From: Leisingera sp. ANG1 | Lineage (GTDB): Bacteria; Pseudomonadota; Alphaproteobacteria; Rhodobacterales; Rhodobacteraceae | Direction: 5' to 3' | DNA: 64,000 bases | Assembly: GCF_000203975.2 (NCBI RefSeq) | Contig: NZ_AFCF02000016.1 | Span: 1 to 64,000, forward strand | Shown here: positions 9,215 through 57,253 of the stretch, in pieces | Layout: every line of letters starts with the position of its first letter | How positions within the stretch are numbered: the stretch's first letter is position 1 | Made by a program: the position numbers and the translations under genes | The notes under the pieces: generated by a model | Told to the model about the DNA's origin: nothing | What the model saw: only the letters and a program-made list of their open reading frames with translations | Database searches by the model: none

Positions 9215-10872
9215 TGGCCACACCCATAGGCGCGCGCGCCTTCTTCCGTCACCAGACCGCGCTCCATGTCCAGCGCCAGCGCCTCCGGGTCGCGCTGCAA
9301 GGGATCGCCAAACCCGCCGCCACCTGGGGTTTCAAAGATCAGATAATCGCCTGCCTCCACCCGCAGCTCGCCCTTGCCCGCAATGTCCTGTTCCCCATCG
9401 CGGAACCGGATACGCCCCGGCGCGCCGGGCAAGCCGCCCATGCGCCCCAAGGCCGGGAACTTCAGCCGCTCCACCGACAGGAACACGATAAATGGCGCGC
9501 CGTTGGAGGATGTCATCTCGATCCGCTGCCCCAGCCCGCCGCGGTATTTGCCTGCGCCGCCCGAGTCGGGCCGCAGCTCGCGCCGCCACATAACGACAGG
9601 CGCCACCGCCTCGGTGATCTCCACCTGGCTGCCATAAACGCCCGAGGGATAGGCGGTTGCCGACAACCCGTCCGCATGGGGCCGGGCGCCGGTGCCGCCG
9701 TTGTGGACCGGCTCGATGGCAAACTCCCGCCCACCGTCGCGGGCCACTTCCGGCGCGTGCCGCATCGGCAGGTCAAACATGCAGCTGGCACCCTCCGCCG
9801 GAACCTGGTCCGGCAGCGCCTGATGCAGGCAGCCCAGCACCAGATCCGGCGCTACCTGCCCCAGCGTATGCCGCATCGCCACCGGCACCGGGCGCTGCGC
9901 ATTCAGGATGCAGCCTTTGGGGCCATCCACGGTAAAGGGCGCCAAACTCCCCGCATTGTTTGGAATATCCGGCCCCACAATGCAGCGCAGCGCAAACACC
10001 GTATAGGCGGTGGCATAGTTCAGCGGCACGTTGATGCCCTTGCTGGAACAGCCCGAGGTGCCGGTGAAATCCACATGCATACCGCCCTTGGAAACGGTCA
10101 GCGCCGCGTGCAGCTCCAGCTCATTCTCATAGCCGTCCATTTTCAGCACATTGCGGTAGACCCCTTCCGGCACCTCCGCGATGGCCTGCAATGTGCCCCG
10201 GCGGGAGGTCTCGATGATATAGGCCCCGAGCGCATTCAGATCGCTGAGGCCAAACTCCTCCATCATCCCTGCCAGCCGTGCCGCCCCGGCCTCGCAGCAG
10301 GCAATCAGCGCATATATGTCCCCCTCATTGGCAATCGGCTCGCGGCTGTTGGCGCGGACAATGTCCAGCAGAAGCGCGTTCGGTTCGCCTTCCGCCACCA
10401 GTTTGCAGGGCGGGATCAGCAGCCCCTCGTCATAGATGTCAGACCCCTCCGGCCCCATGCCCAGCCCGCCCAGGTCCACCAGATGAGAGGTGCAGGAGGT
10501 GAAGCCGACCACTCTGCCCCCTTTGAACACCGGCATCATCAAGAGGAAATCGTTCAGATGCCCCGAGGCCAGCCAGGGATCGTTGGTCATGTAGATATCG
10601 CCGGGCTTCATGGTCTCCGCCGGGAAGCGTTCGCGCAGGTGCATCACCGCCTCTGCCATGGTGTTGATATGGCCCGGCGTGCCAGTGACCGCCTGCGCCA
10701 GCATCTGCCCCATTGCGTCGAAAATCCCGGCAGAGATATCGCCGCATTCGCGCACGATCGGGGAAAATGCGGCGCGGATCAGGGTCTGCCCTTGCTCCTC
10801 GACCACGGCCAGCAACCGGTTCCACATAACTTGCAGGCGGGCTGGCGACAGGTCCTGTGACAAGGCGGTCAT
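9211..10872 (-). CDS. hyuB: Hydantoinase/oxoprolinase subunit B (HyuB)
   Basis: A 553-residue HyuB-family protein: GDISAGIFDAMGQMLAQAVTGTPGHINTM near the start, DIYMTNDPWLASGHLNDFLL, and the glycine-rich C-terminus RYFIFETPGGGGFGDP-like (DYLIFETPGGGGFGDPLQRDPE). HyuB pairs with HyuA in ATP-dependent N-methylhydantoinases, 5-oxoprolinases and acetone or acetophenone carboxylases. The start overlaps the hyuA stop by four bases. With the downstream aminotransferase and racemase it suggests ring opening of a hydantoin or lactam, possibly N-methylated like creatinine-derived N-methylhydantoin; this is inference. Confidence 0.88.
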   Translation of the reverse strand: MTALSQDLSPARLQVMWNRLLAVVEEQGQTLIRAAFSPIVRECGDISAGIFDAMGQMLAQAVTGTPGHINTMAEAVMHLRERFPAETMKPGDIYMTNDPWLASGHLNDFLLMMPVFKGGRVVGFTSCTSHLVDLGGLGMGPEGSDIYDEGLLIPPCKLVAEGEPNALLLDIVRANSREPIANEGDIYALIACCEAGAARLAGMMEEFGLSDLNALGAYIIETSRRGTLQAIAEVPEGVYRNVLKMDGYENELELHAALTVSKGGMHVDFTGTSGCSSKGINVPLNYATAYTVFALRCIVGPDIPNNAGSLAPFTVDGPKGCILNAQRPVPVAMRHTLGQVAPDLVLGCLHQALPDQVPAEGASCMFDLPMRHAPEVARDGGREFAIEPVHNGGTGARPHADGLSATAYPSGVYGSQVEITEAVAPVVMWRRELRPDSGGAGKYRGGLGQRIEMTSSNGAPFIVFLSVERLKFPALGRMGGLPGAPGRIRFRDGEQDIAGKGELRVEAGDYLIFETPGGGGFGDPLQRDPEALALDMERGLVTEEGARAYGCGQ

Positions 10873-12971
10873 TGCTTATCTCCTTTTTGGTCCCGGATCA
10901 GGACAAGGTTGCCGATGGCATCCGCATGGGCGGAGAAATCCGCCGAGACCAGAGTGGTGGTCTGCGGCTCGGTGATCAGCGCCGGGCCTGGGATGCGGTC
11001 GCCGGGTTTCAGACTATCCCGCGGCACAAATGCCGCCTGCTTTTCGCGGCCATCCACATCGCAAATGATTGGCCGGAAGGCCCCGGGCGTGATTGTCCGC
11101 AGCGCCGGCACCTCCGGCACCGGCGGCACCTTCGCATCCGGTGTTGCCACCCGCACCGCCCAGTTCAGGATCTCGATCTTCATCCCTGGCACGGGACGCG
11201 AGAATTGCCGCGCGTACTCAGTTTCAAACGCCGCAATCAGCGGGCCAAGATCCTCCGCCGCCAGATCACGGTCCGGCAGGGCAATCTCGATCTCATGCCC
11301 CTGCCCGCTGTAGCGCATGAAGGCCGTCCGCTGCACCAGCGTTTCAGCATCGCCCGCGCCCTGCGCCACCACCGATTGCGCCTCGTCGATCATCTGGGCA
11401 AACAGTGTATTGATGCCGTCCAGATCCAGGTCCTCCAGCAGCGAATAACGCGAGCGCACGATTTCAAAACTGACCGGCGCAAACAGGAAGCCCACGGCTG
11501 AGCCAACACCCGGATTGGGCGGGATCACGATACGCGCCACCCCGGCGGAACGCGCGACCCGGGTTGCGTGCAGCGGCCCGTTGCCGCCAAAGGCAATCAT
11601 CGTGCGCGCGCCCAGATCCTTGCCCGACTCCACCGCGTGCATCCGTCCGGCGCTGGCCATGCTTTCATCGACAATCCGGCTGACGCCGTCGGCAGCGCCA
11701 GTGCCATCCAGTTCCAGCCGCGAACCAATCACCCGGCTCAGCGCTTCCTTAGAAGCCTCCAGGTCAATCCGGATATGCCCCTCGGCAAAGGTCTCCGGCA
11801 CGATATAGCCCAGCGTGATGTCGCTGTCGGTCACGGTCGGCTCCGTGCCGCCGCGCCCGAAGGCCACCGGACCCGGCTCCGACCCAGCCGATTTCGGCCC
11901 CACGGTCAGCCGGCCCAGCTGGTCCACCCCGGCGATGGAGCCGCCCCCGGCCCCGATCTCGATCATCTCGATCACCGGGATCCGCACCGGCATGCCCGAC
12001 CCTTTGATGAAGCGCGCGGCGCGGGCAATTTCGAACTGGCGCGAGGTCTGCGGCCGGGCGCCATCAATCAGGCACAGCTTGGCGGTGGTGCCGCCCACGT
12101 CAAAGGACAACACCTGTTCCAGCCCCGCCTGCGCCGCAATCCGCGCCGCTAGGATGGCGCCGCCGGCAGGCCCCGACTCCACCAGCCGGATCGGAAACCG
12201 CGCCGCGGTCTGAATGGTGCACATGCCGCCGCCCGCGGTCATCATCAGGATCGGGCAGGCAACGCCTTCCGCCGCGAACCGCCCGGCAAACTGCGCCAGA
12301 TAAGTCTCCATCAGCGGCTGAATATAGGCATTGGCAACCGTGGTGCAGAGCCGGTCGAACTCCCGCGCCTCGGGGCTGACCTCCGAGGAGATCGAGACCG
12401 TCAGCCCGGGCCGCCGCGCCGCCAGAATGTCCCGCAGCCGCCGCTCATGGTCCGGGTTGGAATAGGCGTGCATCAGGCAGACCGCCACCGCCTCTGCCCC
12501 GCTGGCATCCAGCTCCGCAATCAGCGCCTCTACCGCGCTGTCCTCCATGGGGATCAGCACTTCTCCTGTTGCCGACATCCGCTCCCGAATTGTCAGCGCG
12601 CGTTCCCGCGGCACCAGCAGGTCCGGCTTCTCCAGGTTGATGTCATACTGGGAATAGCGCCGCTCATAGGCGATCTCCAGAATGTCCCGGAACCCTTCAG
12701 TCGTCACCGTCGCCACCCGCGCCCCGCGCCGCTCGATCAGCGCATTGGTCGCCAGGGTGGTCCCGTGGATAAAACCGGTGACTTCGCCCAAAGACCGCCC
12801 CGCCTGCGCCATCACCCGCGCCGCGCCTTCCATCGCGCCAATGCCCGGGTTCTGATGCGTGGTCAGGGTCTTGGTTGAGGCCAGAATTCTGTCTTCGCCC
12901 GCCACCAGAACGGTGTCAGTGAATGTGCCGCCAATATCAATGGCAAGGCGCAGCGCTTGTGATGCTGTCAT
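10869..12971 (-). CDS. hyuA: Hydantoinase/oxoprolinase subunit A (HyuA)
   Basis: A 700-residue ATPase-like subunit. The N-terminal Hydant_A_N domain starts LRLAIDIGGTFTDTVLV with the phosphate loop DIGGTFTD, then GFIHGTTLATNALIERRGARVATVTTEGFRD; the Hydantoinase_A domain contains SFDVGGTTAKLCLIDG and FGGNGPLHATRVARSAGV. It is first of four coupled genes (hyuA-hyuB-aminotransferase-racemase). No strong ribosome site is seen before the ATG. The aldehyde dehydrogenase upstream on the same strand is separated by 256 bases containing a hairpin, so hyuA probably has its own promoter. Confidence 0.9.
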   Translation of the reverse strand: MTASQALRLAIDIGGTFTDTVLVAGEDRILASTKTLTTHQNPGIGAMEGAARVMAQAGRSLGEVTGFIHGTTLATNALIERRGARVATVTTEGFRDILEIAYERRYSQYDINLEKPDLLVPRERALTIRERMSATGEVLIPMEDSAVEALIAELDASGAEAVAVCLMHAYSNPDHERRLRDILAARRPGLTVSISSEVSPEAREFDRLCTTVANAYIQPLMETYLAQFAGRFAAEGVACPILMMTAGGGMCTIQTAARFPIRLVESGPAGGAILAARIAAQAGLEQVLSFDVGGTTAKLCLIDGARPQTSRQFEIARAARFIKGSGMPVRIPVIEMIEIGAGGGSIAGVDQLGRLTVGPKSAGSEPGPVAFGRGGTEPTVTDSDITLGYIVPETFAEGHIRIDLEASKEALSRVIGSRLELDGTGAADGVSRIVDESMASAGRMHAVESGKDLGARTMIAFGGNGPLHATRVARSAGVARIVIPPNPGVGSAVGFLFAPVSFEIVRSRYSLLEDLDLDGINTLFAQMIDEAQSVVAQGAGDAETLVQRTAFMRYSGQGHEIEIALPDRDLAAEDLGPLIAAFETEYARQFSRPVPGMKIEILNWAVRVATPDAKVPPVPEVPALRTITPGAFRPIICDVDGREKQAAFVPRDSLKPGDRIPGPALITEPQTTTLVSADFSAHADAIGNLVLIRDQKGDKQ

Positions 12972-19029: not shown

Positions 19030-19920
19030 TCAGCAGCGGGCAAAATCAGCCTGGGTGCTTTGGGCTGTCAGCCATTCAATGGCGAGCTGTGTCTTGCGGC
19101 GCGTATGGCTGCCTTTGCGCACGTCCAGGAAATACCCGTGGGTTGGTTTGATGTCTTCGCCGAACAAGCGCACCACTCTGTCTTCGGCCAGATCCTGATC
19201 AATCAGCGGCAGCCATCCGACGATCACGCCCTGGCCTTCGGCCGCGCCGCGCAGCAGAACATTGGCGTCTTCAAACACCGGCCCGCGCAAGGTGTCCGGA
19301 ACCCGCACGCCCATGGCTGAAAACCAGTCCAGCCAGCCCCAATGATTCCGTTGGTGCAGCAACGGCATGTGCAGGAGGTCTGCCGGTGTTTCCACGGGGC
19401 CGAACCGGGTGAGGAAAGCCTCTGAGGCAATCGCCACCGGGCTGAGTTCAAGCAGTTTGACGGCCCCCTCGGGCATCTCCGACATGCGTTCCCAGCGGAT
19501 CACGATATCCACGTTTTCGCGGTCCTGCGCGCCGGGCTGATACGTCGGCACCACTTCCAGCCCGGTTCCGGGGTGCTGTTCCCAGAAATTGCTGATCCGC
19601 GGCATCAGCCAGCGGGCGGTGAAAATGGGGCCGGCGGCAATGCGCACGGTCCTGCGGGTGGTGCGCCGGAGCGCGCGGACGGCATCCTCGAGCATGCCAA
19701 AGGCCTGAACCGCCGTTTCCGCCAGCCGCTGCCCGTCTTCGGTCAGCACCACATCGCGCCCGGAGCGTTTGAACAGCTTGGTGCCGAGCTGCTCCTCAAG
19801 GCCGCGGATGTGGTGGCTGATTGCGGTGGGGGTTACGGACAGAAGCTCCGCCGCAGCGCGGAAGCTGCCCGTGCTGGCGGCGGCTTCGAAGGCGCGCAGG
19901 GCGGAGAGAGACGGCAGCAT
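19030..19920 (-). CDS. LysR-family regulator of the 20-30.8 kb operon (GcvA-like)
   Basis: A 296-residue LysR protein: MLPSLSALRAFEAAASTGSFRAAAELLSVTPTAISHHIRGLEEQLGTKLFKR is the winged HTH, followed by the effector domain. It is divergent from the six-gene MttB operon with only a short gap that contains two LysR-like inverted repeats (19934-19962), so it is very likely the regulator of that operon, with the pathway substrate or an intermediate as inducer. Its GcvA-like type is shared with the LysR genes at 3321 and 47126. Confidence 0.88.
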   Translation of the reverse strand: MLPSLSALRAFEAAASTGSFRAAAELLSVTPTAISHHIRGLEEQLGTKLFKRSGRDVVLTEDGQRLAETAVQAFGMLEDAVRALRRTTRRTVRIAAGPIFTARWLMPRISNFWEQHPGTGLEVVPTYQPGAQDRENVDIVIRWERMSEMPEGAVKLLELSPVAIASEAFLTRFGPVETPADLLHMPLLHQRNHWGWLDWFSAMGVRVPDTLRGPVFEDANVLLRGAAEGQGVIVGWLPLIDQDLAEDRVVRLFGEDIKPTHGYFLDVRKGSHTRRKTQLAIEWLTAQSTQADFARC

Positions 19921-19933
19921 GCGGAATCCATAG

Positions 19934-19962
19934 ATGAGTACAGCTCATTAGTTGCTGAGCAA
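19934..19962. promoter_or_regulatory. LysR-type operator sites
   Basis: ATGAG-TACAG-CTCAT (19934-19948) is an inverted repeat of the LysR T-N11-A form. Four bases on, TTGCT-G-AGCAA (19952-19962) is a perfect second inverted repeat. Both lie in the gap between the LysR start (19920) and the MttB gene (20026). Confidence 0.5.
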
Positions 19963-20025
19963 TGACCATTTGTAAATGGGCGTTTCAAGGGGCACCGTTT
20001 GAAAGAAGTTAGCTGGGCTCATGAA

Positions 20026-21573
20026 ATGGCGGCATCCGGAAAACGAAGGCGGGGGCGTAAGGAACGCCTCCTTGAAGCTGAGGAAGCTGGCAGCGTTTCG
20101 CCGGTCTGGCCCGGCGTTGAAGGCGGGCGGCTGAAACCGCTTGCGCCGGAGGAGGTAGCGCTGGTGGAGGAAACCGCGCTGTCGCTTCTGGAAACGCTGG
20201 GGCTGAGCCAGGCCATTCCGTCCATGATTGACAAGGTCTGCAGCGCCGGCGGGCGGCTGACCGAAGACCGCAGGCTGCTGTTTCCGCGGGTGCTGGTGCA
20301 CTGGGCCGTGGAGGGCGCGCAGAAGGCGTTCACGCTGTGCGGCCAGGAGCCGGAAAACGATCTGCAGATCAGTGGTGCGCGGGTCCACATGTCGACGGGC
20401 GGGGCGGCACCGGGGGTGTTTGACCTCGACACCGGGGCCTATCGCGACTCCACGCTGGCGGACCTCTATGACGCAGCGCGGATTGTCGACCGGATGGAGA
20501 ACATCCATCATTTCAGCCGCTCGGTGGTGGCGCGCGACATCGAGGACAACGCGGTGATGGATCTGAACACCGCCTATGCCTGCCTGATGGGCACCTCCAA
20601 GCATGTTTCGATCTCAATCAGCGCACCGGAGAACGTGCGGCCAATCGCGGAGCTTTGCTACCAAATCGCCGGCGGCGAGGCCGCGTTCCGGGCGCGACCC
20701 TTCCTGACGGTGATGGTCTGCCATGTGGTGCCGCCGATGCGCTTTGCCGAGGAGGCCTGCGAGGTGCTGGAGGCCGCCATAAAGGCAGGGTTCCCGGTGC
20801 AGCTGATCAGCGCTGGCCAGGCCGGGGCAACCAGCCCCGCCACAATCGCCGGGTCGCTGGTGCAGGCGGTTGCCGAAACATTGGCCGGGCTGGTTTTTGC
20901 CCGGCTGGTGGACACGGAGGCCAAGGCGATCTTTGCCCCCAAACCCCTGGTGGCCGATCTGCGCACCGGATCGATGTGCGGCGGCGGCGGCGAGCAGGCA
21001 ATCCTGATGGCGGGCGCGGCGCAGATGGGGCGGCATTTCGGCCTGCCGGTTTCCTCCATCGCGGGGATCACCGATTCCAAATGCCTGGACGCGCAATACG
21101 GCGCCGAGAAATCGCTGGCCGTTGCGATGGCCGCCCATGCAGGGTCCAACATTGTGACCCAGGCAGCGGGCATGCAGGCGAGCCTGCTGGGCGTCAGCCA
21201 TGCGGCCTATGTCAGCGACAATGACCTGCTGGGCAACATCCTGCGCACAATCCGCGGGGTCGAGGCAACGCCGGAAAACACTGCCGCGGATGTGATCGCC
21301 CAGGTGTGCCGCGGCGAAGGTCACTATCTGGGGGAGCAGCACACGTTTGAGCGGATGAAATCAGACTACTTCTATCCGCACATCGGCGACCGCCGGTCTC
21401 CGCGCGAATGGCAGGAGGCTGGCGCCCGGCCGGTGGGCGACGCGGCGCGGGACACAGCCCGTGAAATTCTGGGCACGCATTTTCCGCAGCATGTCAGCGA
21501 TGAGACCGACCGCGCGCTGCGCGCGGTGTTTGATATCCGGCTTTCCCGTGAACAGATTGGCAGGCCCGCATGA
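20026..21573 (+). CDS. Trimethylamine methyltransferase (MttB) family protein, non-pyrrolysine, copy 2
   Basis: A 515-residue MttB-superfamily protein, diverged from the other two in the window. After a basic leader (SGKRRRGRKERL) come VALVEETALSLLETLGL, HMSTGGAAPGVFDLDTGAYR, KPLVADLRTGSMCGGGGEQAILMAGAAQMGRHFGLPVSSIAGITDSK and YLGEQHTFERMKSDYFYPHIGDR. No in-frame amber codon is present. The ATG at 20026 is preferred to a TTG at 19999. It is first of six coupled genes and overlaps the next by four bases. It probably takes a methyl group from the pathway substrate, but its methyl acceptor is not in the window. Confidence 0.85.
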   Translation: MAASGKRRRGRKERLLEAEEAGSVSPVWPGVEGGRLKPLAPEEVALVEETALSLLETLGLSQAIPSMIDKVCSAGGRLTEDRRLLFPRVLVHWAVEGAQKAFTLCGQEPENDLQISGARVHMSTGGAAPGVFDLDTGAYRDSTLADLYDAARIVDRMENIHHFSRSVVARDIEDNAVMDLNTAYACLMGTSKHVSISISAPENVRPIAELCYQIAGGEAAFRARPFLTVMVCHVVPPMRFAEEACEVLEAAIKAGFPVQLISAGQAGATSPATIAGSLVQAVAETLAGLVFARLVDTEAKAIFAPKPLVADLRTGSMCGGGGEQAILMAGAAQMGRHFGLPVSSIAGITDSKCLDAQYGAEKSLAVAMAAHAGSNIVTQAAGMQASLLGVSHAAYVSDNDLLGNILRTIRGVEATPENTAADVIAQVCRGEGHYLGEQHTFERMKSDYFYPHIGDRRSPREWQEAGARPVGDAARDTAREILGTHFPQHVSDETDRALRAVFDIRLSREQIGRPA

Positions 21574-22859
21574 GCAACAGCGAACTGAGCAGCCGCGCCC
21601 GGGCGGCGCTGCCGGGCGGGGTCAGCCACGAACTGCGCTACCGCGCGCCGCATCCGGTCTTCATCGAACGCGCCTCAGGTGCCGAGAAATGGGATGCGGA
21701 GGGGCGCCGCTACATCGATTTCAAGATGGGATCGGCCAGCCAGATGCTGGGCCACGGCCACCCCGCGGTTGTCGAGGCGCTGCAGCGGCAGGCCGACCAA
21801 GCGATTTTCAGCGCCGATTGCCACGCGGCCGAGACCGAATGGGCGGAATGGGTCAACCGGTTGTTTCCCTGCGCCGAACGCACCCGTTTCACCGCATCTG
21901 GCAGCGAGGCAACGATGCTGGCGATGCGGCTGGGCCGCGCCTGGTCCGGCAAGGATCGGGTTCTGAGGGTCGACGGCCACTATCACGGCTGGCACGACCA
22001 TGCGCTCAAAGGTGCCAAGGCGGGCAGTTTGCAGGCCGCGTCCCTGGGGGTGCCGGATGCGGTGAACGGCCTGGTGGAAGTCTGCGCGGCCGATCCACAG
22101 GCGATGCAAGCGGCCCTGCAGGACAACAGCATCGGCACCGTGATTATCGAGGCATCCGGAGCGAATTACGGTTCGGTGCCGCTGTCCGTGGAAACATTGC
22201 GCGCTTTGCATGATGCGGCCCGGGCTGCCGGGGCGGTGCTGATCTTTGATGAGATCATCACCGGCCTGCGCTGGTCGCCCGGCGGGCGGCAGGCGCGCGA
22301 CAGCATCGTGCCGGACCTGACAACGCTGGCCAAGGTGGTGACCGGCGGCCTGCCGGGCGGGGCCGTTTGCGGGCGTGCGGACCTCATGGAGCTGATGAAC
22401 AACGCAGCCGCGCGGGACGGGCTGTCGCCGCCGGTCAGCCACAAGGGAACGTTCAACGGCTCCCCGCTGATTGCCGCGGCCGCCTGTGCTGCGATGCCCT
22501 TGCTGGCCACCGGAGAGGTGCAGGCACAGGCCGATGCCATGGCAGAGCGCCTGAGGGACGGCCTTAATGCGCGGATGGCGCGGCACGGCATCGTGGGATG
22601 CGCCTATGGGGAGAGTTCAACCTGCCATCTTCTGTTTGGGGCAGCAAACCCAGAGGGGCTGAGCCCGGCTGCAATCCGCAACGTGCCGCCTGCCTTGGTG
22701 GCGGGCCTGCGCTGCGGCCTGCTGGCGCGCGGCGTGGATCTGATGAGCCATACCTCCTGCGTGACCTCCGCGGCGCATACCCCGGAGCTGATAGACGAGG
22801 CGCTGGACGCCTTTGATGCGGTGTTTGCCGCGCTTGTTCAGGACGGAGTGCTGCAATGA
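21570..22859 (+). CDS. Class III aminotransferase, glutamate-1-semialdehyde aminomutase-like
   Basis: A 429-residue PLP enzyme resembling glutamate-1-semialdehyde 2,1-aminomutase: LPGGVSHELRYRAPHPVF at the N-terminus, FTASGSEATMLAMRLGRAW, LIFDEIITGLRW with Asp227, and the PLP lysine at residue 255 in TTLAKVVTGGLPGGAVCGR. It overlaps the MttB gene upstream and the flavoenzyme downstream by four bases each. A housekeeping haem role is unlikely in this operon; an amino-transfer or 1,2-amino-shift in a catabolic route is more likely. Confidence 0.87.
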   Translation: MSNSELSSRARAALPGGVSHELRYRAPHPVFIERASGAEKWDAEGRRYIDFKMGSASQMLGHGHPAVVEALQRQADQAIFSADCHAAETEWAEWVNRLFPCAERTRFTASGSEATMLAMRLGRAWSGKDRVLRVDGHYHGWHDHALKGAKAGSLQAASLGVPDAVNGLVEVCAADPQAMQAALQDNSIGTVIIEASGANYGSVPLSVETLRALHDAARAAGAVLIFDEIITGLRWSPGGRQARDSIVPDLTTLAKVVTGGLPGGAVCGRADLMELMNNAAARDGLSPPVSHKGTFNGSPLIAAAACAAMPLLATGEVQAQADAMAERLRDGLNARMARHGIVGCAYGESSTCHLLFGAANPEGLSPAAIRNVPPALVAGLRCGLLARGVDLMSHTSCVTSAAHTPELIDEALDAFDAVFAALVQDGVLQ

Positions 22860-25261
22860 CCCTGCCATCCCGCGCCCGCACCGTGATCATCGGCGGCGGC
22901 GTCATCGGCTGTTCCATCGCATACCACCTGGCCCGCGAAGGGCGGACGGATATCGTGGTGCTGGAGCGCTCCAAACTGACCAGCGGCACCACTTGGCACG
23001 CGGCGGGGCTGGTGCGCCGGCTGCGGCCCTCGGCGACGCTGACCAGGCTGATCAACTACTCGATCGACCTGTATGGCGCGCTGGAAGTGGAGACCGGCCA
23101 GGCCACCGGCTGGACCCAGACAGGCTCGCTGACGCTGGCGACCAACCCGGACCGGCTGACCAATATCAAGCGCCAGGTGTCGCTGGGCCGTGCCTTTGGC
23201 CTGGAGGCCGAGGTGGTGGATGCAGCCCGCGCCAAGGAGCTATGGCCGCTGATCGAGACAAGCGATGTAATCGGCGCGGTCTGGTCGCCAGCGGACGGGC
23301 GGGTGAACCCCTCGGACGTGGCGCTGGCGCTGTCCAAGGGCGCGCGGGCGCGGGGAGTGCAGATCTTTGAGGATACTGCCGTTACGGGCCTGCAGAAAAC
23401 GGGGGGGCGGATTTCCGGCGTCGAGGTGGGTGAGCATCTGATCGAAGCCGACGAGGTGGTCATTGCCTGCGGCCTCTGGTCCCGTGAGGTTGCGGCGATG
23501 GCGGGGGCGCATATGCCGCTCTATGCCTGCGAGCATTTCTACATCCTGACCAAGCCGTTGCAGGAGGTGCAGGCGCTCGGCAAGGGCGCGCATCTGCCGA
23601 CGCTGAACGATCAGGACGCGTTTCTTTATGCCCGTGACGATGTGGAGGGGCTTCTAGTCGGCTGTTTCGAACCGCAGGCCAAGGGGCTGCCCTTGGACCG
23701 GCTGCCCAGGGACTTTTCCTTTGACCTCCTGGATGAGGACTGGGACCACTTCATGCCGATGATGGAAAACGCCCTGCGCCGCATTCCGGCCTTGGAGAAG
23801 GCCGAGGTGCGAATGCTGTTGAACGGGCCGGAAAGCTTCACCCTCGACAGCCAGTTCATGCTGGGTGAAAGCCCAGAGGTGCCGGGGTTGTTCCTGATGG
23901 GCGGCATGAATTCCACTGGCATCGCGCTGGCTGGCGGCGCAGGGCGCGCGATGGCGGAGTGGATCATCGCGGGCGAGCCAACGATGGATCTGAACGAGAC
24001 CGACATCCGCCGCTTCAGCCCGGAGATGAACGTGCTGGGCGCGCTGGAGGCCCGTATTCCCGAGGTGCTGGGCCGCCATTACGACAACCCCTATCCGGGC
24101 CGGTCCATGGAGACCGCCCGCGGCCAGCGCCGCTCGCCCATCCACGCGGGTCTGGTTGCGGCCGGGGCAAGGTTTGAAAGCCGCGGCGGCTGGGAGCGGG
24201 CGGTGCATTTCGGCGGCAAGGCCGCGCATCTGCCGCTGACCTTCGGGGTGCCTGCCTGGCGCGATCAGGTGGGCCGCGAGGTGGAGGCCTGCCGCAACGG
24301 CGCCGCCATCCTGGACCAAAGCGCCTTTGGCAAGATTTGGGTGCAGGGGCCGGATGCCTGCGCCTTCCTCAACCATCTCTGCGCGGCGCAGATGGATATT
24401 GCTGAGGGCCGTATCGCCTACAGTCAGATCCTGAACCGCAAGGGCGGCATCGAAAGCGATGTCACGGTGCAGCGGCACGGGCCGGAGACCTATCTGATGA
24501 TCGCCGGCGCCGGCGAAGTGGTGCGCGATCTGAAACGGATGCGGGAAACCAAGGGGGATTTCCGCGTGGAATTCACCGATGTGACCAGCGGTTATGCAAT
24601 CCTCGGCCTGGCGGGCGCTCAGGCCCGCGCGGTGCTACAGGCGACCTCCAACAGTCCTGTGCCGGACCTGAAACGCTTTCAGTTTGGCCCTGTCGAGATC
24701 GGCCTGGCGCGCGGCTGGGCCGGGCGGCTGAGCTTCACGGGGGAGGTGGGATATGAGCTTTACATCCCCGCCGACATGGCGATGGCGGCCTATGAGTCGC
24801 TGGTGGCAGCAGGGGCAAGCCACGCCGGGCTATACGCCAGCGGCTCGCTGCGAATCGAAAGCGGTTTCCGCGCCTTCGGCCATGAACTGGGCCCCGGCAC
24901 CACGCCGCAGGAGGCCGGGCTGGGGGCATTCTGCGCCTTTGGCACCGGGTTCGCGGGCGAGGAGGCCTTGAAGGACCATACCCCGGAACGCCGGATCGTC
25001 TCGATCCTGTTCGACGACCCGGCGGCGGTCCCGATCCATGACGAGCCGGTTTACTACGGCGGCCAGGTTGCGGGCCAGATCACCTCGGCGGCCTGGAGCT
25101 ACAAATACGGGCGTTCCGTCGCGCTGGCGATGATTGACACGCCGCTGGACCAGCTTGCCATAGACACCGTTGTCTCTGGCTTTGAGGTCGAAATCGCCTG
25201 CACGCGCTTTGCCGCCAAGGCATCGCTGAAACCCGCCAAAGAGGCCTTTTCCCATGACTGA
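22856..25261 (+). CDS. GcvT-fused FAD oxidoreductase (dimethylglycine dehydrogenase-like), copy 1 of the operon
   Basis: 801 residues, the full family length. Domains in order: FAD-binding DAO (TVIIGGGVIGCSIAYHLAREG at about 8-28), the SGTTWHAAGLV motif whose His carries covalent FAD in dimethylglycine dehydrogenase, the GcvT folate domain from about residue 440 (NGAAILDQSAFGKIWVQGPDA) and the GCV_T C-terminal barrel (PVYYGGQVAGQITSAAWSYKYGRSVALAMI). It probably oxidises an N-methyl amine and transfers the carbon to tetrahydrofolate. It overlaps its neighbours by 4 and 8 bases. The pair with the next gene is not an obvious recent duplication. Confidence 0.88.
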   Translation: MTLPSRARTVIIGGGVIGCSIAYHLAREGRTDIVVLERSKLTSGTTWHAAGLVRRLRPSATLTRLINYSIDLYGALEVETGQATGWTQTGSLTLATNPDRLTNIKRQVSLGRAFGLEAEVVDAARAKELWPLIETSDVIGAVWSPADGRVNPSDVALALSKGARARGVQIFEDTAVTGLQKTGGRISGVEVGEHLIEADEVVIACGLWSREVAAMAGAHMPLYACEHFYILTKPLQEVQALGKGAHLPTLNDQDAFLYARDDVEGLLVGCFEPQAKGLPLDRLPRDFSFDLLDEDWDHFMPMMENALRRIPALEKAEVRMLLNGPESFTLDSQFMLGESPEVPGLFLMGGMNSTGIALAGGAGRAMAEWIIAGEPTMDLNETDIRRFSPEMNVLGALEARIPEVLGRHYDNPYPGRSMETARGQRRSPIHAGLVAAGARFESRGGWERAVHFGGKAAHLPLTFGVPAWRDQVGREVEACRNGAAILDQSAFGKIWVQGPDACAFLNHLCAAQMDIAEGRIAYSQILNRKGGIESDVTVQRHGPETYLMIAGAGEVVRDLKRMRETKGDFRVEFTDVTSGYAILGLAGAQARAVLQATSNSPVPDLKRFQFGPVEIGLARGWAGRLSFTGEVGYELYIPADMAMAAYESLVAAGASHAGLYASGSLRIESGFRAFGHELGPGTTPQEAGLGAFCAFGTGFAGEEALKDHTPERRIVSILFDDPAAVPIHDEPVYYGGQVAGQITSAAWSYKYGRSVALAMIDTPLDQLAIDTVVSGFEVEIACTRFAAKASLKPAKEAFSHD

Positions 25262-27665
25262 CACTACCCGCACCACGCAGGTTGCCATCATCGGCGGCGG
25301 TATCATGGGCGTGGCGGCCCAGTTCCAGCTGGCCGAGAACGGCTGGACCGACACGATCCTGTTTGAGAAGGCGGAGCTCACCTCAGGCTCCACCTGGCAC
25401 GCAGCGGGACAGATCGCCCATGCGGTGGGATCGCGCCTGGCGGGCTGGATCAACAAGACCTCGATCGAAACCTACAAACGGGTCGAGCGGGAAACCGGCC
25501 AGAGCATCGGCTGGCATGAGGTGGGCGGATTCCGCATTGCCACCACGGACGATGAGGTCGACTGGATGAAGTCGATCATGGGCGTCGGCAAGCTGCTGGA
25601 CCTGCCGATGGATCTGGTCGGCCCCGAGGAGGTCGCCCGCGTGAACCCCTTCTACAGGGTGGACGGCGTCAAGGCGGCGGTGCGCACCTATGAGGACGGG
25701 CATATTGATCCGTCCTCCGTCACCATGGCATTGGCCGCCGCCACCCGCGCGCGCGGCGCAAGGATCGAGCGGCGCAACCAGGTGCTGGGCGCCTCCCGCA
25801 AGGGGGATATGTGGCTGTTGCGCACGGAAAAAGGCGATGTGCTGGCCGAGCATGTGGTGATCGCTGCGGGCTCTTATGCCAACCAGGTCGGGGCGTGGTT
25901 CGGGCTGAAAATTCCGTCTGTCAGCTGCCTGCACCATTATCTGGTGACAGATACCGTGCCCGAGTTCATGGACCGCCCCGAACTGCCGGTGATGCGCGAC
26001 AATGCCTATGGCGGCTATATTCGTCAGGAGCAGAAATCCGGCCTCATCGGCATTTACGAGGGTCATGTCTGCCCCACCGTCTGGGAGATGCCGCAGGGCG
26101 CGCCCTGGGCTGCGGAGAATGAGCTGTTTGAGGCCGATTACGACTCCATCGGCGATTTTCTGATGGTGGCGTTTGAGAAGATGCCGGTGCTGGCCGACCT
26201 CGGCATCAAACGCGTGGTGCGCGGGGCGATCACCCATACGCCGGACGGCGGCATGCTGGTGGGCCCCTCGGGTGCGCCCAATGTCTGGCTGTCCTGCGGG
26301 TCGTCCATCGGCCTTGCCTGGGGCGGCGGCGCGGGCAAGGTGCTGGCCGATTGGATGGTGCATGGCGAAACCCCGATCAACACCCGCGGTCTTGATCCGC
26401 GCCGGTATGGCAATTTCTCTACCGATCATTTCATTGTTGAGCGCACCAAGGATGAGTTCATGCGCCGCCATGACACCCCTTGCCCCGGCAAGCAGTTCCA
26501 GAGCCTGCGGCCGCTGAAGCGTCACCCGCTGTATGACCGGTTGGCCGCCAAGGGTGCGGTGTTCGGCGAAGTGGCTGGCTGGGAACGCCCGCGCTATTTC
26601 GGCGAGGTTGGCGAAGTAGAGCAGATCGGCTGGGGCCACCAGCCCTGGCACGCCAACGCCATGGCCGAGGCCAAGGCGACGCGTGAAGCGGCAGGTGTCA
26701 TCGACCTCTGTGCCTTTGCCCAGTTCGAGATCACCGGCAAGGACGCAGGCAAGCTGCTGGACCGCCTCTCGGCCAACAAGATCCCGGCCAAGGACGGCCG
26801 GATGAGCCTGAACCACCTGCTGACCGAAAAGGGCCGCTTCGAGACTGAGATCACCATCTGGCGCATAGCTGAGAACCGCTTTTTCACCGGCTCGCCCATC
26901 GCCCGCTGCAACCCGGACTTCGATTGGATCAAGTCGCACATCCGTGACGGCGAAGACGTGCAGATGATCAACCGCACCCACGACTGGGGCATGCTGGCGC
27001 TTTCCGGCCCGGCCTCGCGCCGGATCATGGCAGAGCTGACGGATGCGGACCTCACGAACCGGGCGTTCCCCTGGCTGTCCGGGCAGGAGATCACCGTGGC
27101 CGGCATCCCGTGCTATGCGCTGCGGGTCTCTTTCGTGGGCGAACTGGGGTGGGAGCTGCACGCGCCGTTGGAGCAGGCCGGCGAACTCTACGACGCGCTG
27201 TTTGCAGCTGGCGAAAAACACGGGCTGACCGATCTGGGGTCTTATGCCTTCAACGGCATGCGGATGGAGAAGGCCTACCGTGCCTCCGGCGAGCTGACCA
27301 CCGACGCGGGGCCGCTGGATGTGGGGCTGGAGCGGTTTGTGGCGGCGGAGGGCCGGGAGTTTCTGGGCAAGGAAGCCTTGCTGCCCCGCGATCCGGGCTG
27401 GGAGCTGTTCTACGCGGAACTGTATTCTGACGGCGTTGATATCCACGGCGGCGAGCCGGTGCTGCGGGAGGGAAAGCCCGTCGGCCTGACCACCTCCGGC
27501 GGTTATGGCTACACGGTTGGCAAATCGCTGGGCTGGCTGTTTGTCCGCAAGGGCACCCCGCGCGAAGGGCTGACCGTGCAGATCCTGAACCGGGAATTTC
27601 CCGTCACCATCCATGTTGAAGCAGTTTTTGACCCGCAGAACCTGCAGCCCCGATCCGAGGATTGA
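25254..27665 (+). CDS. GcvT-fused FAD oxidoreductase (dimethylglycine dehydrogenase-like), copy 2 of the operon
   Basis: 803 residues. VAIIGGGIMGVAAQFQLAENGWTDTILFEKAELTSGSTWHAAGQIAHA gives the FAD fold and the flavin-linking His. The GcvT half has MAEAKATREAAGVIDLCAFAQFEITGKDA, SFVGELGWELHAP, MEKAYRASGELTTDAGPLDVGLERFV and SGGYGYTVGKSLGWLFV. Its C-terminal half resembles the partial enzyme at the left edge of the window more than the preceding gene. Two such enzymes in series would fit stepwise removal of two N-methyl groups from one substrate; this is inference. Confidence 0.88.
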   Translation: MTDTTRTTQVAIIGGGIMGVAAQFQLAENGWTDTILFEKAELTSGSTWHAAGQIAHAVGSRLAGWINKTSIETYKRVERETGQSIGWHEVGGFRIATTDDEVDWMKSIMGVGKLLDLPMDLVGPEEVARVNPFYRVDGVKAAVRTYEDGHIDPSSVTMALAAATRARGARIERRNQVLGASRKGDMWLLRTEKGDVLAEHVVIAAGSYANQVGAWFGLKIPSVSCLHHYLVTDTVPEFMDRPELPVMRDNAYGGYIRQEQKSGLIGIYEGHVCPTVWEMPQGAPWAAENELFEADYDSIGDFLMVAFEKMPVLADLGIKRVVRGAITHTPDGGMLVGPSGAPNVWLSCGSSIGLAWGGGAGKVLADWMVHGETPINTRGLDPRRYGNFSTDHFIVERTKDEFMRRHDTPCPGKQFQSLRPLKRHPLYDRLAAKGAVFGEVAGWERPRYFGEVGEVEQIGWGHQPWHANAMAEAKATREAAGVIDLCAFAQFEITGKDAGKLLDRLSANKIPAKDGRMSLNHLLTEKGRFETEITIWRIAENRFFTGSPIARCNPDFDWIKSHIRDGEDVQMINRTHDWGMLALSGPASRRIMAELTDADLTNRAFPWLSGQEITVAGIPCYALRVSFVGELGWELHAPLEQAGELYDALFAAGEKHGLTDLGSYAFNGMRMEKAYRASGELTTDAGPLDVGLERFVAAEGREFLGKEALLPRDPGWELFYAELYSDGVDIHGGEPVLREGKPVGLTTSGGYGYTVGKSLGWLFVRKGTPREGLTVQILNREFPVTIHVEAVFDPQNLQPRSED

Positions 27666-27669
27666 GACC

Positions 27670-29364
27670 ATGACCAAAATCAACAGCATGATCACCGGAG
27701 GCGAGGCCGTCTACCGCGTTCTTAAGGCTAATGGCATCGACACCGTATTCGGCCTGCTGGGCGGGTCAATGCTGGAGCTGTACGACGCGATGCATCAGGG
27801 CGGCGAAATCGCCTATGTCGGTGCACGGGATGAGCGCGCGGCGGGCCATATGGCTGACGCCTGGGCGCGGATGACTGGCAACCCCGGAGTGGTGCTGGGG
27901 GCGCAGGCGGGACCGGGCGTGGTCAACATCGTGACCGCCGTGGCCGAGGCGCAGCTGGCCTATTCGCCGCTGGTAGTGATCGCTGGAGCCATCACCCGGG
28001 CCGATCAGGCCAAGGACACCTTTCAGGAGGTCGACCAAGTGGCGCTGTTTGCACCGGTCTCGAAACGCTCGGTCATGGTCAGCGATCCTTCGCGCCTGGC
28101 GCCGATGCTGGAGGACGCGATCCGGCTGGCCAATTCGGGCCGCCGCGGGCCGGTGGTGCTGCATGTGCCGCGTGACCTGTTTGCCGCCGAAGTTGCGCCC
28201 ATAGACCCCAAGCCAGTGAACATCGCCCGCCCGGGGCCTGCGGCGCCGGAAGACATCAGCGCCATTGCGGCCATGCTTTCCACCGCAAAACGTCCGGTAA
28301 TCTTCGCGGGCGGCGGGTTCAAATGGGGCCAGGGGCGCGAAGCGCTGACTGCCCTGGCCGAAACCCTGGAGGTGCCGGTGGTGGCCTCGACCGGCCATGC
28401 CGACGTGATGCGCCACGGCCATCCCTGGTTTGCAGGCCAGGCCGGGCCGCGGGGCAACCAGGTGGCCAGCCGCCTGACCAAGGAAGCCGATGTGATGGTG
28501 GTGCTGGGCGCGCGGCTGGGTTTCAACTCCACCTTTCACAGCAACGACTATGTCGGCGCGGAGACACGCATCGCCCATGTGGACATCGACGGCTCTGCCG
28601 TGGGCCGCTATTTCCCGGCGGAGATCGCGGTTCAGGCCGATGCCCGGCTGACAGCCGAAGCCTTGACCGCAGCGGCATCGAAACCGGCGGCGGATGAATG
28701 GCGGGCAGCCTTCAAGGCGGATATGGAAAGCCTTGCCGAAGAACGTGCGGAAGAAGCGCGGATCGCCACTCTGCCGATGCACCCGCGCCGGGCGCTGGCA
28801 GAGATCCGCGCCGCACTGCCGGAAAACGCTATCGTTACGCTCGACACCGGCAACACCTGCCTGCAGGCCGCCGACCGGCTGGCGCATTACGAGCCGATGA
28901 GCCTGATCACGCCGCTGGATTTCGGCCTGGTCGGCTTTGGCCTGGCGGCGGCCATCGGTGCCAAGGCGGCCGCACCGGAGCGCCCGGTGGTGGCGGTGAT
29001 GGGCGACGGTGCCTTGGGTTACACGATGATCGAGATCCAAACCGCCATTCAGCACAGGCTGCCGGTCATAGTAGTGGTCCTGGATAACGAGGCCTGGGGG
29101 GCCGAGAAGGCTTATCAGCAGGAGTTTTACGGCGGCCGCCTGCTCGGTGCGGAGATCACCTCGCCGCGCTATGACAAATTTGCCGAGCTGTGCGGGGGCA
29201 GGGGCATCTGGGTCGAGGGTCCCGGCGAAATGGGCCCGGCGCTGGAGGCGGCGCTGGCCAGCAATGAGACCACCATCATTCAAGGCAAGATTGATCCGGG
29301 TGCGCTGATGACGCTGCGCAAGGATCTGTTCAAGGCCCCGGAAAATACCCCGCAGGAGGACTGA
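27670..29364 (+). CDS. Thiamine-diphosphate enzyme (acetolactate synthase/sulfoacetaldehyde acetyltransferase-like)
   Basis: 564 residues with the three ThDP-family domains: N-terminal Pyr domain with the catalytic-type glutamate in GARDERAAGHMADAWAR, central domain (AAPEDISAIAAMLSTAKRPVIFAGGGFKWG) and C-terminal PP domain with the GDG motif MGDGALGYTMIEIQTAIQHRLPVIVVVLDNEAWG. The start at 27670 is set by GAGG nine bases upstream. It follows the second flavoenzyme by four bases. It may decarboxylate or ligate a 2-oxo acid produced earlier in the pathway; the exact reaction cannot be read from the sequence. Confidence 0.85.
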   Translation: MTKINSMITGGEAVYRVLKANGIDTVFGLLGGSMLELYDAMHQGGEIAYVGARDERAAGHMADAWARMTGNPGVVLGAQAGPGVVNIVTAVAEAQLAYSPLVVIAGAITRADQAKDTFQEVDQVALFAPVSKRSVMVSDPSRLAPMLEDAIRLANSGRRGPVVLHVPRDLFAAEVAPIDPKPVNIARPGPAAPEDISAIAAMLSTAKRPVIFAGGGFKWGQGREALTALAETLEVPVVASTGHADVMRHGHPWFAGQAGPRGNQVASRLTKEADVMVVLGARLGFNSTFHSNDYVGAETRIAHVDIDGSAVGRYFPAEIAVQADARLTAEALTAAASKPAADEWRAAFKADMESLAEERAEEARIATLPMHPRRALAEIRAALPENAIVTLDTGNTCLQAADRLAHYEPMSLITPLDFGLVGFGLAAAIGAKAAAPERPVVAVMGDGALGYTMIEIQTAIQHRLPVIVVVLDNEAWGAEKAYQQEFYGGRLLGAEITSPRYDKFAELCGGRGIWVEGPGEMGPALEAALASNETTIIQGKIDPGALMTLRKDLFKAPENTPQED

Positions 29365-29368
29365 GACC

Positions 29369-30844
29369 ATGACCACCTGGGACACGATCATCATCGGCGC
29401 CGGCAACGCGGCCTTTTGCGCCGCCCATGCCGCACGGGAAAAGGGGGCAAGCGTGCTGATGCTGGAATGCGCGCCCGAGGCGGAAAACGGCGGCAACTCC
29501 CGCTATACCGCAGGCGCCATCCGCTTTGCCTATGACGGGGTGGAGGACATCCGCGCGCTGTGCCCGGACCTGAGTGAAGAGCAGATCGCCATCACCGATT
29601 TCGGCACCTACACGCAGGAGCAGTTCTTTGACGACATGTTCCGCGTGACCCGCTACCGCACCGACCCGGCCCTGTGCGAACGGCTGGTAACAACCTCTCG
29701 CGAGACGATGCACTGGATGCGCGGCAAGGGCATCCGCTTCATGCCGATCTACGGGCGGCAAGCGTTCAAGGTCGACGGAAGGTTCAAGTTTTGGGGCGGG
29801 CTGACGCTTGAGGCCTGGGGCGGCGGCCCCGGCCTGGTGGATGCCCACACCAGAATCGCCAAAGAGGCCGGTGTCGAGATCCGTTATGAAACCCGTGCCG
29901 TGGAGATCTTGACCGACGGTTACGCGGTGACCGGCGTCAAGGTCCGCCACAGGGGGGAGCTTCAGGATTTGCGCGCGAATTCCGTGGTGATTGCTTCAGG
30001 CGGTTTTCAGGCCAGCCCGGAGATGCGCACCCGCTACCTCGGCCCCGGCTGGGAGATGGCCCGGGTGCGCGGCTCCCGCTTCAACACCGGCGAAGGCATC
30101 AGGATGGCGATGGCGGCGGGCGCCTCCACCTATGGCAACTGGTCGGGCTGCCACGCGGTCGGCTGGGACTACAATGCGCCGGAGTTCGGCGATCTGGATG
30201 TCGGCGACGGTTTCCAGAAGCATTCCTACCCCTGGGGGGTGATGGTGAACGCCACGGGCCGCCGGTTTGTCGATGAGGGCGCGGATTTCCGCAATTACAC
30301 CTATGCCAAATACGGCCGGGTGATCCTGAACCAGCCTGACCAGTTCGCCTGGCAGGTTTTCGACGCCAAGGTCACCCATCTGCTGCGTGACGAATACCGC
30401 ATCAAGCGGGTGACCAAGGTGACCGCGCCGACGCTGGAGGAGCTTGCGCACAAGCTGGAAGGCGTGGACCCGCAGGGCTTTCTCGATGAAATCCGCGCCT
30501 ACAATGCGGCAGTGGACACCACCACGCCGTTTGATCCGAACGTCAAGGATGGCCGCGGGGCGCGGGGGCTGGCGGTGCCGAAGTCCAATTGGGCCAACAC
30601 CATCGACGAAGGCCCGTTCGAAGCCTACCAGGTCGGTTGCGGCATCACCTTTACTTTCGGCGGCCTGAGGATCGACCCGGACAGCGCGCAGGTCCTGGAC
30701 AACGATCTTGCGCCGATCCCCGGCCTGTTCGCGGCAGGGGAACTGGTCGGCGGCATTTTCTATTTCAACTATCCTGGCGGGACCGGCCTGATCAGCGGAT
30801 CTGTTTTCGGCCGACTGGCGGGGGCGCATGCCTTTGGCGGATAG
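29369..30844 (+). CDS. FAD-dependent dehydrogenase, TcuA/fumarate-reductase flavoprotein-like
   Basis: 491 residues: TIIIGAGNAAFCAAHAAREKGASVLMLE (dinucleotide fold), NGGNSRYTAGAIRF, VIASGGFQASPEMRTRYLG, the RFVDEG motif and GLFAAGELVGGIFYFNYPGGTGLISGSVFGRLAGAHA at the C-terminus. This is the family of tricarballylate dehydrogenase TcuA and fumarate reductase flavoproteins, which act on a C-C bond next to a carboxylate. It is the last gene of the operon, four bases after the ThDP enzyme. No TcuB-type partner is present. Confidence 0.85.
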   Translation: MTTWDTIIIGAGNAAFCAAHAAREKGASVLMLECAPEAENGGNSRYTAGAIRFAYDGVEDIRALCPDLSEEQIAITDFGTYTQEQFFDDMFRVTRYRTDPALCERLVTTSRETMHWMRGKGIRFMPIYGRQAFKVDGRFKFWGGLTLEAWGGGPGLVDAHTRIAKEAGVEIRYETRAVEILTDGYAVTGVKVRHRGELQDLRANSVVIASGGFQASPEMRTRYLGPGWEMARVRGSRFNTGEGIRMAMAAGASTYGNWSGCHAVGWDYNAPEFGDLDVGDGFQKHSYPWGVMVNATGRRFVDEGADFRNYTYAKYGRVILNQPDQFAWQVFDAKVTHLLRDEYRIKRVTKVTAPTLEELAHKLEGVDPQGFLDEIRAYNAAVDTTTPFDPNVKDGRGARGLAVPKSNWANTIDEGPFEAYQVGCGITFTFGGLRIDPDSAQVLDNDLAPIPGLFAAGELVGGIFYFNYPGGTGLISGSVFGRLAGAHAFGG

Positions 30845-57006: not shown

Positions 57007-57253
57007 CGCAGGGGTCTCCTTTGACGGTGAGTTTCTCCAAATGAATCGGGTTTCACCTGCAGGATTGCGAAATCCGGTTGCAGAAACCGACACTCTGTCC
57101 GGCGGAACCGGCCTGGGGTCAGATCCGGTTTATTCCGCTCAAGGCTCAGAATGTGCATTTAGAGCCTATACCGGCTGTTTTCCGGGAATCTCTCTGCCTT
57201 GGCAACTCGCCAGCCGCGCCGGTCTTGCGCATCATGCATACCGCAGCGAAAAA

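Follow-up and report, generated by a model that had tools for sequence, protein, structure and literature searches.

A 64,000-nucleotide stretch of the 4.59-Mb genome of Leisingera sp. ANG1 (contig NZ_AFCF02000016.1, positions 1 to 64,000; hereafter the window, in whose positions coordinates are given) carries a six-gene operon behind a divergent LysR-family gene. It encodes a methyltransferase of the MttB superfamily, a class III aminotransferase (AT3), two flavoproteins of the dimethylglycine dehydrogenase (DMGDH) type that are fused to a GcvT domain (DGa and DGb), a thiamine diphosphate (ThDP) enzyme of an Xsc-like clade, and a TcuA-like flavoprotein. The operon is real and conserved and all of its enzymes come from known families, yet it is not assignable to a named pathway within the searchable literature. 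We consider it moderately probable that the operon serves the aerobic catabolism of a trimethylammonium (betaine-type) compound. The proposal draws on direct observations of operon anatomy, co-conservation, invariant catalytic positions, exchange of the middle block, and a single B12-binding_2 protein in the genome; every reaction, the reaction order, and the substrate we infer.

In the proposed order, MttB would pass the first methyl group to the cell's shared MtgC-type corrinoid protein, and an MtgD-like protein would move it onward to tetrahydrofolate. DGa and DGb would oxidize the second and third N-methyl groups and pass them to tetrahydrofolate in their GcvT domains, and AT3 would then transaminate the primary amine so formed, leaving an aldehyde or ketone. 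The Xsc-like ThDP enzyme would add to this carbonyl and cut the bond to the neighboring anionic group, and the product, a small acyl phosphate or an aldehyde, would enter central metabolism. The likely role of the LysR protein is that of a substrate-responsive regulator, and the TcuA-like flavoprotein would provide an accessory step. The combination of one corrinoid-linked and two folate-linked demethylases with a pyridoxal phosphate (PLP) transaminase points to the removal of three methyl groups and then of the nitrogen. Serial N-demethylation, amino-group transfer, and ThDP chemistry were already put forward in the initial annotation of this DNA and are supported here, as is an operon whose parts co-occur in many genomes. 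The present analysis adds that three methyl groups would be lost ahead of transamination, that the genome has a single B12-binding_2 protein, that the middle block is swapped for one flavoprotein in some loci, and that the ThDP enzyme is Xsc-like.

Operon anatomy

The open reading frame (ORF) coordinates bear out the tight packing of six genes behind a divergent LysR gene that had been described earlier. The genes occupy positions 20026 to 30844 in the same direction, and their successive junctions are overlaps of 4, 4, and 8 bases followed by two 4-base gaps (Table 1). The MttB-like ORF, whose frame has no in-frame stop, likely starts at the ATG at 20026, with a TTG at 19999 as an alternative. 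Pfam and NCBIfam models agree with the families named in the initial annotation, except that its "aminomutase-like" enzyme is better described as a class III aminotransferase. The DGa type and DGb are about 28% identical (window DGb compared with the Ruegeria pomeroyi DGa gene, and the reverse).

TABLE 1 Genes of the operon and its divergent regulator
Gene product	Position	Strand	Basis
LysR-family regulator, GcvA-like	19030..19920	-	NF008352, 238.8 bits, under cutoff of 288
MttB-superfamily methyltransferase (pfam06253)	20026..21573	+	PF06253, 464.9 bits, gathering cutoff 25
AT3, class III PLP aminotransferase, GSAM / D-phenylglycine aminotransferase branch	21570..22859	+	Pfam and NCBIfam models, solved relatives
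DGa, DMGDH-like FAD oxidoreductase fused to folate-binding GcvT domain	22856..25261	+	Pfam, solved relatives, alignment
DGb, second DMGDH-like FAD-GcvT protein	25254..27665	+	Pfam, solved relatives, alignment
ThDP enzyme of Xsc-like clade, orthologue of R. pomeroyi SPO_RS21380	27670..29364	+	NCBIfam, alignments, synteny
TcuA-like FAD flavoprotein (fumarate reductase family), accessory	29369..30844	+	NF006130, 578.8 bits, cutoff 369

Conservation across genomes

A search with the MttB protein as bait, taking one genome per species, recovered 142 relatives, of which the best 80 (79 loci) were kept and 56 loci (L009 to L064; MttB identity of about 54% or more) were examined as orthologues. Forty-eight of these hold at least 11.2 kb from the MttB start and are the denominator for the operon counts, gene presence being called from tblastn matches at identity thresholds set per gene (35% to 60%). 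The five-gene core of MttB, AT3, DGa, DGb, and ThDP enzyme, in that order, was found in 37 of the 48 loci, and in 8 of 48 an OYE-type flavoprotein of 650 amino acids stands alone between MttB and the ThDP enzyme in place of AT3, DGa, and DGb. A LysR match (identity of at least 35%) accompanies 34/37 core loci and 6/8 OYE-type loci; in the tabulated loci it lies about 1 kb upstream and divergent, with the exceptions of L045 and L046. AT3 had no match in the remaining 23 loci (L065 to L087), whose MttB proteins are 40 to 45% identical to the bait.

This gene-neighborhood comparison, suggested earlier as a check on co-occurrence, shows the core genes recurring together. Co-conservation of all six genes holds for the five-gene core and fails for the TcuA-like gene, matched in only 14 of the 37 core operons, a lower bound given that the locus ends inside the ThDP gene in 5 of 37 (L021, L039, L041, L045, and L046). 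The 14 matches include short remnants in L018 (8% of the query) and L053 (11%), matches cut by the locus end in L012 and L040, and one in L038 that lies about 10 kb upstream on the opposite strand. An aldehyde dehydrogenase gene is inserted after MttB in 9/37 core operons, and an amidase gene precedes the ThDP gene in 7/37.

The nearest named MttB relatives belong to Leisingera strains (95% identity; very near records may be absent from the list). MttB at 60% identity or more was found in 10 of 295 genomes of the family (own genome included). The ThDP orthologue is full-length at 84% identity or more in 13 of 292 genomes of the order (own included), with one further partial match at 88%, and nine additional order genomes have a listed ThDP match at 45 to 48% identity. 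When the ThDP enzyme served as bait, DGb or the amidase gene lay directly upstream in all 14 close orthologues, the window included.

Beyond the operon genes and the OYE-type, aldehyde dehydrogenase, and amidase genes, no family of clustered flanking ORFs occurs in more than 4 of the 56 loci. The module therefore seems to be bounded by LysR on one side and by the ThDP or TcuA-like gene on the other. Pfam scans of selected flanks returned scattered genes. A hydantoinase A/B pair and a class I/II aminotransferase lie at 8147 to 12971 of the window on the minus strand, and a HyuA gene (L059) and a HyuB gene (L060) occur near the operon in two OYE-type loci. The record of L052 is titled Oceanobacillus; its genome, G510, is identical in Xsc contig and coordinates (C832:506702-508432) to G004, which belongs to the family of the window's genome, and the title looks wrong.

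In an MttB tree (a quick FastTree reconstruction with some weak nodes, from which two own paralogues at C1:414667 and C8:140605 were omitted), the operon MttB proteins cluster separately from the eight others sampled from this genome. OYE-type loci branch at the base of the operon cluster. One OYE-type locus, L043, falls inside the loci with AT3, DGa, and DGb, and this placement suggests that the middle block has been exchanged.

The counterpart in Ruegeria pomeroyi

The megaplasmid of R. pomeroyi DSS-3 (NC_006569.1) carries the five genes and LysR in order, from SPO_RS21405 to SPO_RS21380; SPO_RS21400 is MttB, SPO_RS21395 AT3, SPO_RS21390 and SPO_RS21385 DGa and DGb, and SPO_RS21380 the ThDP gene. 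By gene order, SPOA0309 would be the ThDP gene and SPOA0310 to SPOA0314 would be DGb, DGa, AT3, MttB, and LysR; this numbering follows from the agreement of the gene order with two published annotations, SPOA0309 as a sulphoacetaldehyde acetyltransferase (2014; PMC4334477, Table 4) and SPOA0318 as a methionine gamma-lyase (PMC9870897). SPOA0310 is listed under "Glycine" and is higher in the late diatom growth phase in Table 1 of PMC9723723. Because this strain has the five genes and LysR, the model can be tested there, and an arrayed mutant library exists (PMC10130141). The TcuA-like gene of R. pomeroyi DSS-3 (L145, 23246 to 24710) appears as two tblastn pieces in different frames, at a place where the gene table of the record, which omits pseudogenes, lists nothing, suggesting that the gene is decaying or dispensable.

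Demethylation enzymes and the corrinoid context

The PF06253 score places the operon methyltransferase in the MttB superfamily, and among solved structures it is nearest the glycine betaine methyltransferases 9yce and 2qne. It is not of the pyrrolysine type in the strict sense, with 320.4 bits against the TIGR02369 cutoff of 525 and no in-frame amber codon. The Pfam scan found no corrinoid protein among the operon products. The genome as a whole has 11 pfam06253 homologues, 14 matches to FAO_M (DMGDH type), two pterin-binding matches, and one B12-binding_2 match (C1:168734, about 0.6 kb from a DUF1638 gene at C1:167617), B12-binding_2 being the domain by which corrinoid proteins were sought. 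A corrinoid protein outside the operon and none within it is the arrangement of MtgBCD, and sharing is predicted. In the main text of PMC12478193, R. pomeroyi mutants show a dual role for MtgC and MtgD, in methionine synthesis and in the demethylation of glycine betaine, other pfam06253 proteins are suggested to feed the same MtgC/MtgD core, and marine bacteria are described as having up to seven pfam06253 genes. The proportions in the Leisingera genome, with 11 MttB and 14 DMGDH-type proteins for one B12-binding_2 protein, fit this shared-MtgC model; its 11 pfam06253 genes exceed the published "up to seven."

Both DGa and DGb have dimethylglycine dehydrogenase as their best solved match (424.5 and 510.4 bits, over nearly the whole length) and show the domain architecture of that family (DAO, FAO_M, GCV_T, and GCV_T_C). 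Alignments of called ORFs (>58% identity, >85% coverage, window included) show H48, H227, Y258, and D535 of DGa to be invariant in 35/35 rows and H49, H228, Y255, and E532 of DGb in 38/38 rows. We take these to be the flavin-linking histidine and flavin and active-site residues. A plain motif-text search missed the DGa and DGb motifs in some sequences; the alignments show the residues in all rows.

The abundance of such enzymes also bears on a general methyl-harvesting set, in which MttB, DGa, and DGb would each have a small methylamine of their own as substrate (such as glycine betaine, dimethylglycine, or sarcosine), the same regulator would control all genes, and AT3 and the ThDP enzyme would serve another purpose. 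Functional overlap is plausible with 14 FAO_M and 11 MttB proteins in one genome, and DGa and DGb are near dimethylglycine dehydrogenase. Yet AT3, DGa, and DGb are swapped as one block, arguing for one linear route, and the R. pomeroyi pfam06253 proteins named as rising on glycine betaine are SPO2108 and SPO2134 (PMC12478193, main text). We regard this explanation as quite improbable. "SPOA" tags occur nowhere in the main text of PMC12478193, the supplements lying outside the search. Glycine betaine looks a less likely substrate; it, choline, and carnitine are disfavored only because the main text of the proteomics study names other MttB proteins.

The window has two further pfam06253 genes. 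One of these and a DMGDH-type FAD-GcvT gene at 8 to 1963 and 5800 to 7338, with LysR and MmgE/PrpD genes nearby, possibly form a second demethylation cluster. The third pfam06253 gene of the window (55450 to 57093) lies beside two 244-amino-acid ORFs whose starts resemble, by eye, short-chain dehydrogenases.

The ThDP enzyme and the sulfonate question

The best NCBIfam models for the ThDP enzyme are those of Xsc, below their cutoffs (NF005713, 409.2 of 620 bits; TIGR03457, 386.7 of 676.4 bits), and among the 25 best of 53 models the protein is nearer Xsc than any 2-oxo-acid decarboxylase. It is about 32% identical to the genome's own true Xsc and has five motifs in common with it (FQExxQ, HxD, GNxC, WGAEK, and RxD). 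HxD and WGAEK, whose use as an Xsc criterion was noted in this analysis and is no official definition, are absent in three other aligned ThDP rows (L120, L121, and L152b). Exceptions to the motifs are an M for K in the operon row L038, the cut sequence of L045, and LLM-linked relatives without GNxC. From these comparisons, the enzyme probably either cleaves beside a carbonyl in the manner of Xsc or acts as a 2-oxo-acid decarboxylase.

The likeness to Xsc invites a narrower form of the betaine proposal, in which the substrate would be taurine betaine (N,N,N-trimethyltaurine) or another N-methylated sulfonate. Demethylation would lead to taurine or an analogue, which AT3 would convert to a sulfo-aldehyde; from this the ThDP enzyme, like Xsc, would release sulfite and form an acyl phosphate. 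The shared motifs, the leading Xsc models, and the 2014 annotation of SPOA0309 are in keeping with this route, and taurine occurs together with its mono-, di-, and trimethyl derivatives in the red alga Galaxaura rugosa (PMC10538540). Our search of open-licence PubMed Central (PMC) articles returned no paper matching bacterial breakdown of methyltaurines. Related ThDP genes (about 44 to 48% identity) adjoin TauD genes in L148 and L149, whose products keep five of the six residues that we take to be the E. coli TauD substrate site (H70, Y73, N95, F159, F206, and R270), with T at N95. Set against this, the scores lie under the Xsc cutoffs, no taurine-pyruvate aminotransferase model is among the best 25 of 68 models for AT3, and true Xsc is present in the own genome and in 41 of 50 carrier genomes, so that in most carriers a further enzyme acting on plain sulfoacetaldehyde would duplicate an existing one. 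The TauD-like protein of L056 and L057 keeps R270 while the equivalents of H70, Y73, N95, F159, and F206 are replaced, which argues against taurine as the substrate there. Altogether, we judge an N-methylated sulfonate unlikely. Were it the substrate, the operon would encode a complete breakdown of methylated taurine or a close sulfonate analogue, with three B12- and folate-dependent demethylations, a transamination, and desulfonation by a new Xsc-like branch, and its second version would use one flavoprotein to take the amine whole; this fuller outcome is equally doubtful.

Co-occurrence with true Xsc was considered as a test of the sulfonate route and set aside; the excess (41/50 carrier genomes, a census leaving out L022, L026, L031, L034, L037, and L051 of the 56 loci, versus 182/290 family genomes) is modest, confounded by relatedness, and not decisive. 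In each of L148 to L156 the related ThDP gene is accompanied by an aldehyde dehydrogenase gene, and L149, the one scanned, also has an LLM monooxygenase, a PcaD-like hydrolase, and TauD, with a glutamate-synthase-domain gene nearby. Homarine and trigonelline were considered for the LLM-monooxygenase clusters by comparison with trigonelline genes; a literature search gave no help.

AT3, its OYE-type replacement, and the TcuA-like flavoprotein

The best solved relative of AT3 is D-phenylglycine aminotransferase (255.5 bits), and the models place it outside HemL (TIGR00713, 248.9 of 527.3 bits; NF000818, 265.7 of 398 bits). K255, the PLP lysine position, is invariant in 38/38 rows; a plain motif-text search missed the lysine motif in 10/37 sequences, and the alignment shows the lysine in all rows.

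The relationship to D-phenylglycine aminotransferase would suit an alpha- or beta-amino-acid betaine, likewise a narrower form of the betaine proposal. Demethylation would release the free amino acid, AT3 would convert it to a 2-oxo or 3-oxo acid, and decarboxylation by the ThDP enzyme would give an aldehyde for oxidation by an aldehyde dehydrogenase, such as the one inserted in 9 of 37 operons. Upstream of the OYE-type operon of L049 lie genes for a Rieske oxygenase, two MR_MLE proteins, a PhyH protein, and a solute-binding protein; the MR_MLE superfamily includes betaine racemases. However, the MR_MLE, Rieske, and aldehyde dehydrogenase genes are common and were spotted by scanning selected flanks only, the ThDP enzyme is nearer Xsc than the 2-oxo-acid decarboxylases, and ordinary amino acids would need no private transaminase. 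An amino-acid betaine is, on balance, a tentative possibility.

The block exchange also bears on the broader proposal of a trimethylammonium compound. Since MttB and the ThDP enzyme are kept while the block is swapped, the products that the two inserts deliver to the ThDP enzyme should be alike in kind. This suggests that AT3, DGa, and DGb convert a dimethylamino group to a carbonyl, which the ThDP enzyme then cleaves. If the OYE-type insert acted like histamine dehydrogenase, it would need a single step to make this carbonyl.

The TcuA-like protein, scored above the NF006130 cutoff, falls below that of TIGR02485 (260.3 of 372.55 bits). TcuB (TIGR02484) had no match in the own genome, and the control genomes gave none over the cutoff, with no strong positive control. 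Because of the missing TcuB match, tricarballylate chemistry is doubtful. A branched N-methyl dicarboxylate, suggested as a substrate in the initial annotation, found no direct support, though arginines at two substrate-site positions of the TauD-like protein of L056 and L057 would suit a carboxylate.

Weighing the proposed pathway

Several points weigh against the proposed route. Neither a substrate nor a transporter nor any biochemical datum links the operon to a particular compound, and the clustered flanks of the 56 loci hold no conserved transporter (simple ORF calls, some genes missed). That MttB, DGa, and DGb act on one molecule we only infer. The 48 loci were all baited with MttB and include many close relatives (Ruegeria), and they are not 48 independent events. 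L014 has the operon without AT3, and L056 and L057 combine MttB with a DMGDH-type protein and a TauD-like gene and have neither AT3 nor a ThDP gene. The OYE-type protein may not be an amine dehydrogenase, because 2,4-dienoyl-CoA reductase is its nearest solved relative (279 bits) and histamine dehydrogenase comes later (192 bits). The E and K of WGAEK also occur in pyruvate decarboxylase, and the motif does not fix the reaction. Finally, the search for corrinoid proteins covered those with a B12-binding_2 domain.

The initial annotation knew of no named pathway with this composition, and none was found in the titles and abstract starts of open-licence PMC articles, where the gene set is not described; subscription papers and preprints lie outside that search, and it may be described elsewhere. 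In the sea, betaine-type osmolytes carry nitrogen and one-carbon units between algae and bacteria. Few of the many MttB homologues of marine bacteria have a named substrate (PMC12478193, main text). With its five conserved genes and exchangeable middle block, the module described here makes one such route specific enough to be tested. If the ThDP enzyme is a new Xsc branch, an unassigned part of organosulfur cycling would be opened.

Comparison with known systems

The stachydrine and hydroxyproline betaine pathways resemble the proposed route in the stepwise N-demethylation of a betaine, and the OYE-type protein of the variant loci is reminiscent of their demethylase; unlike them, the six operon genes include no Rieske demethylase or proline steps. 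DGa and DGb share with dimethylglycine dehydrogenase and oxidase the DAO-FAO_M-GCV_T architecture and the invariant flavin-site positions, whereas here a pair of paralogues shares its operon with a transaminase and a ThDP enzyme. The TcuA-like protein resembles tricarballylate dehydrogenase by NF006130 and differs in TIGR02485, in the missing TcuB match, and in being accessory to the operon. The ThDP enzyme shares the five motifs with Xsc but is about 32% identical to the own Xsc and under both Xsc cutoffs. The operon also resembles MtgBCD of R. pomeroyi DSS-3 (PMC12478193, main text), where a pfam06253 enzyme without a private corrinoid protein is followed by DMGDH-type enzymes; unlike MtgBCD, the operon adds AT3 and a ThDP enzyme, and its MttB stands apart from the eight other sampled MttB proteins of its own genome.

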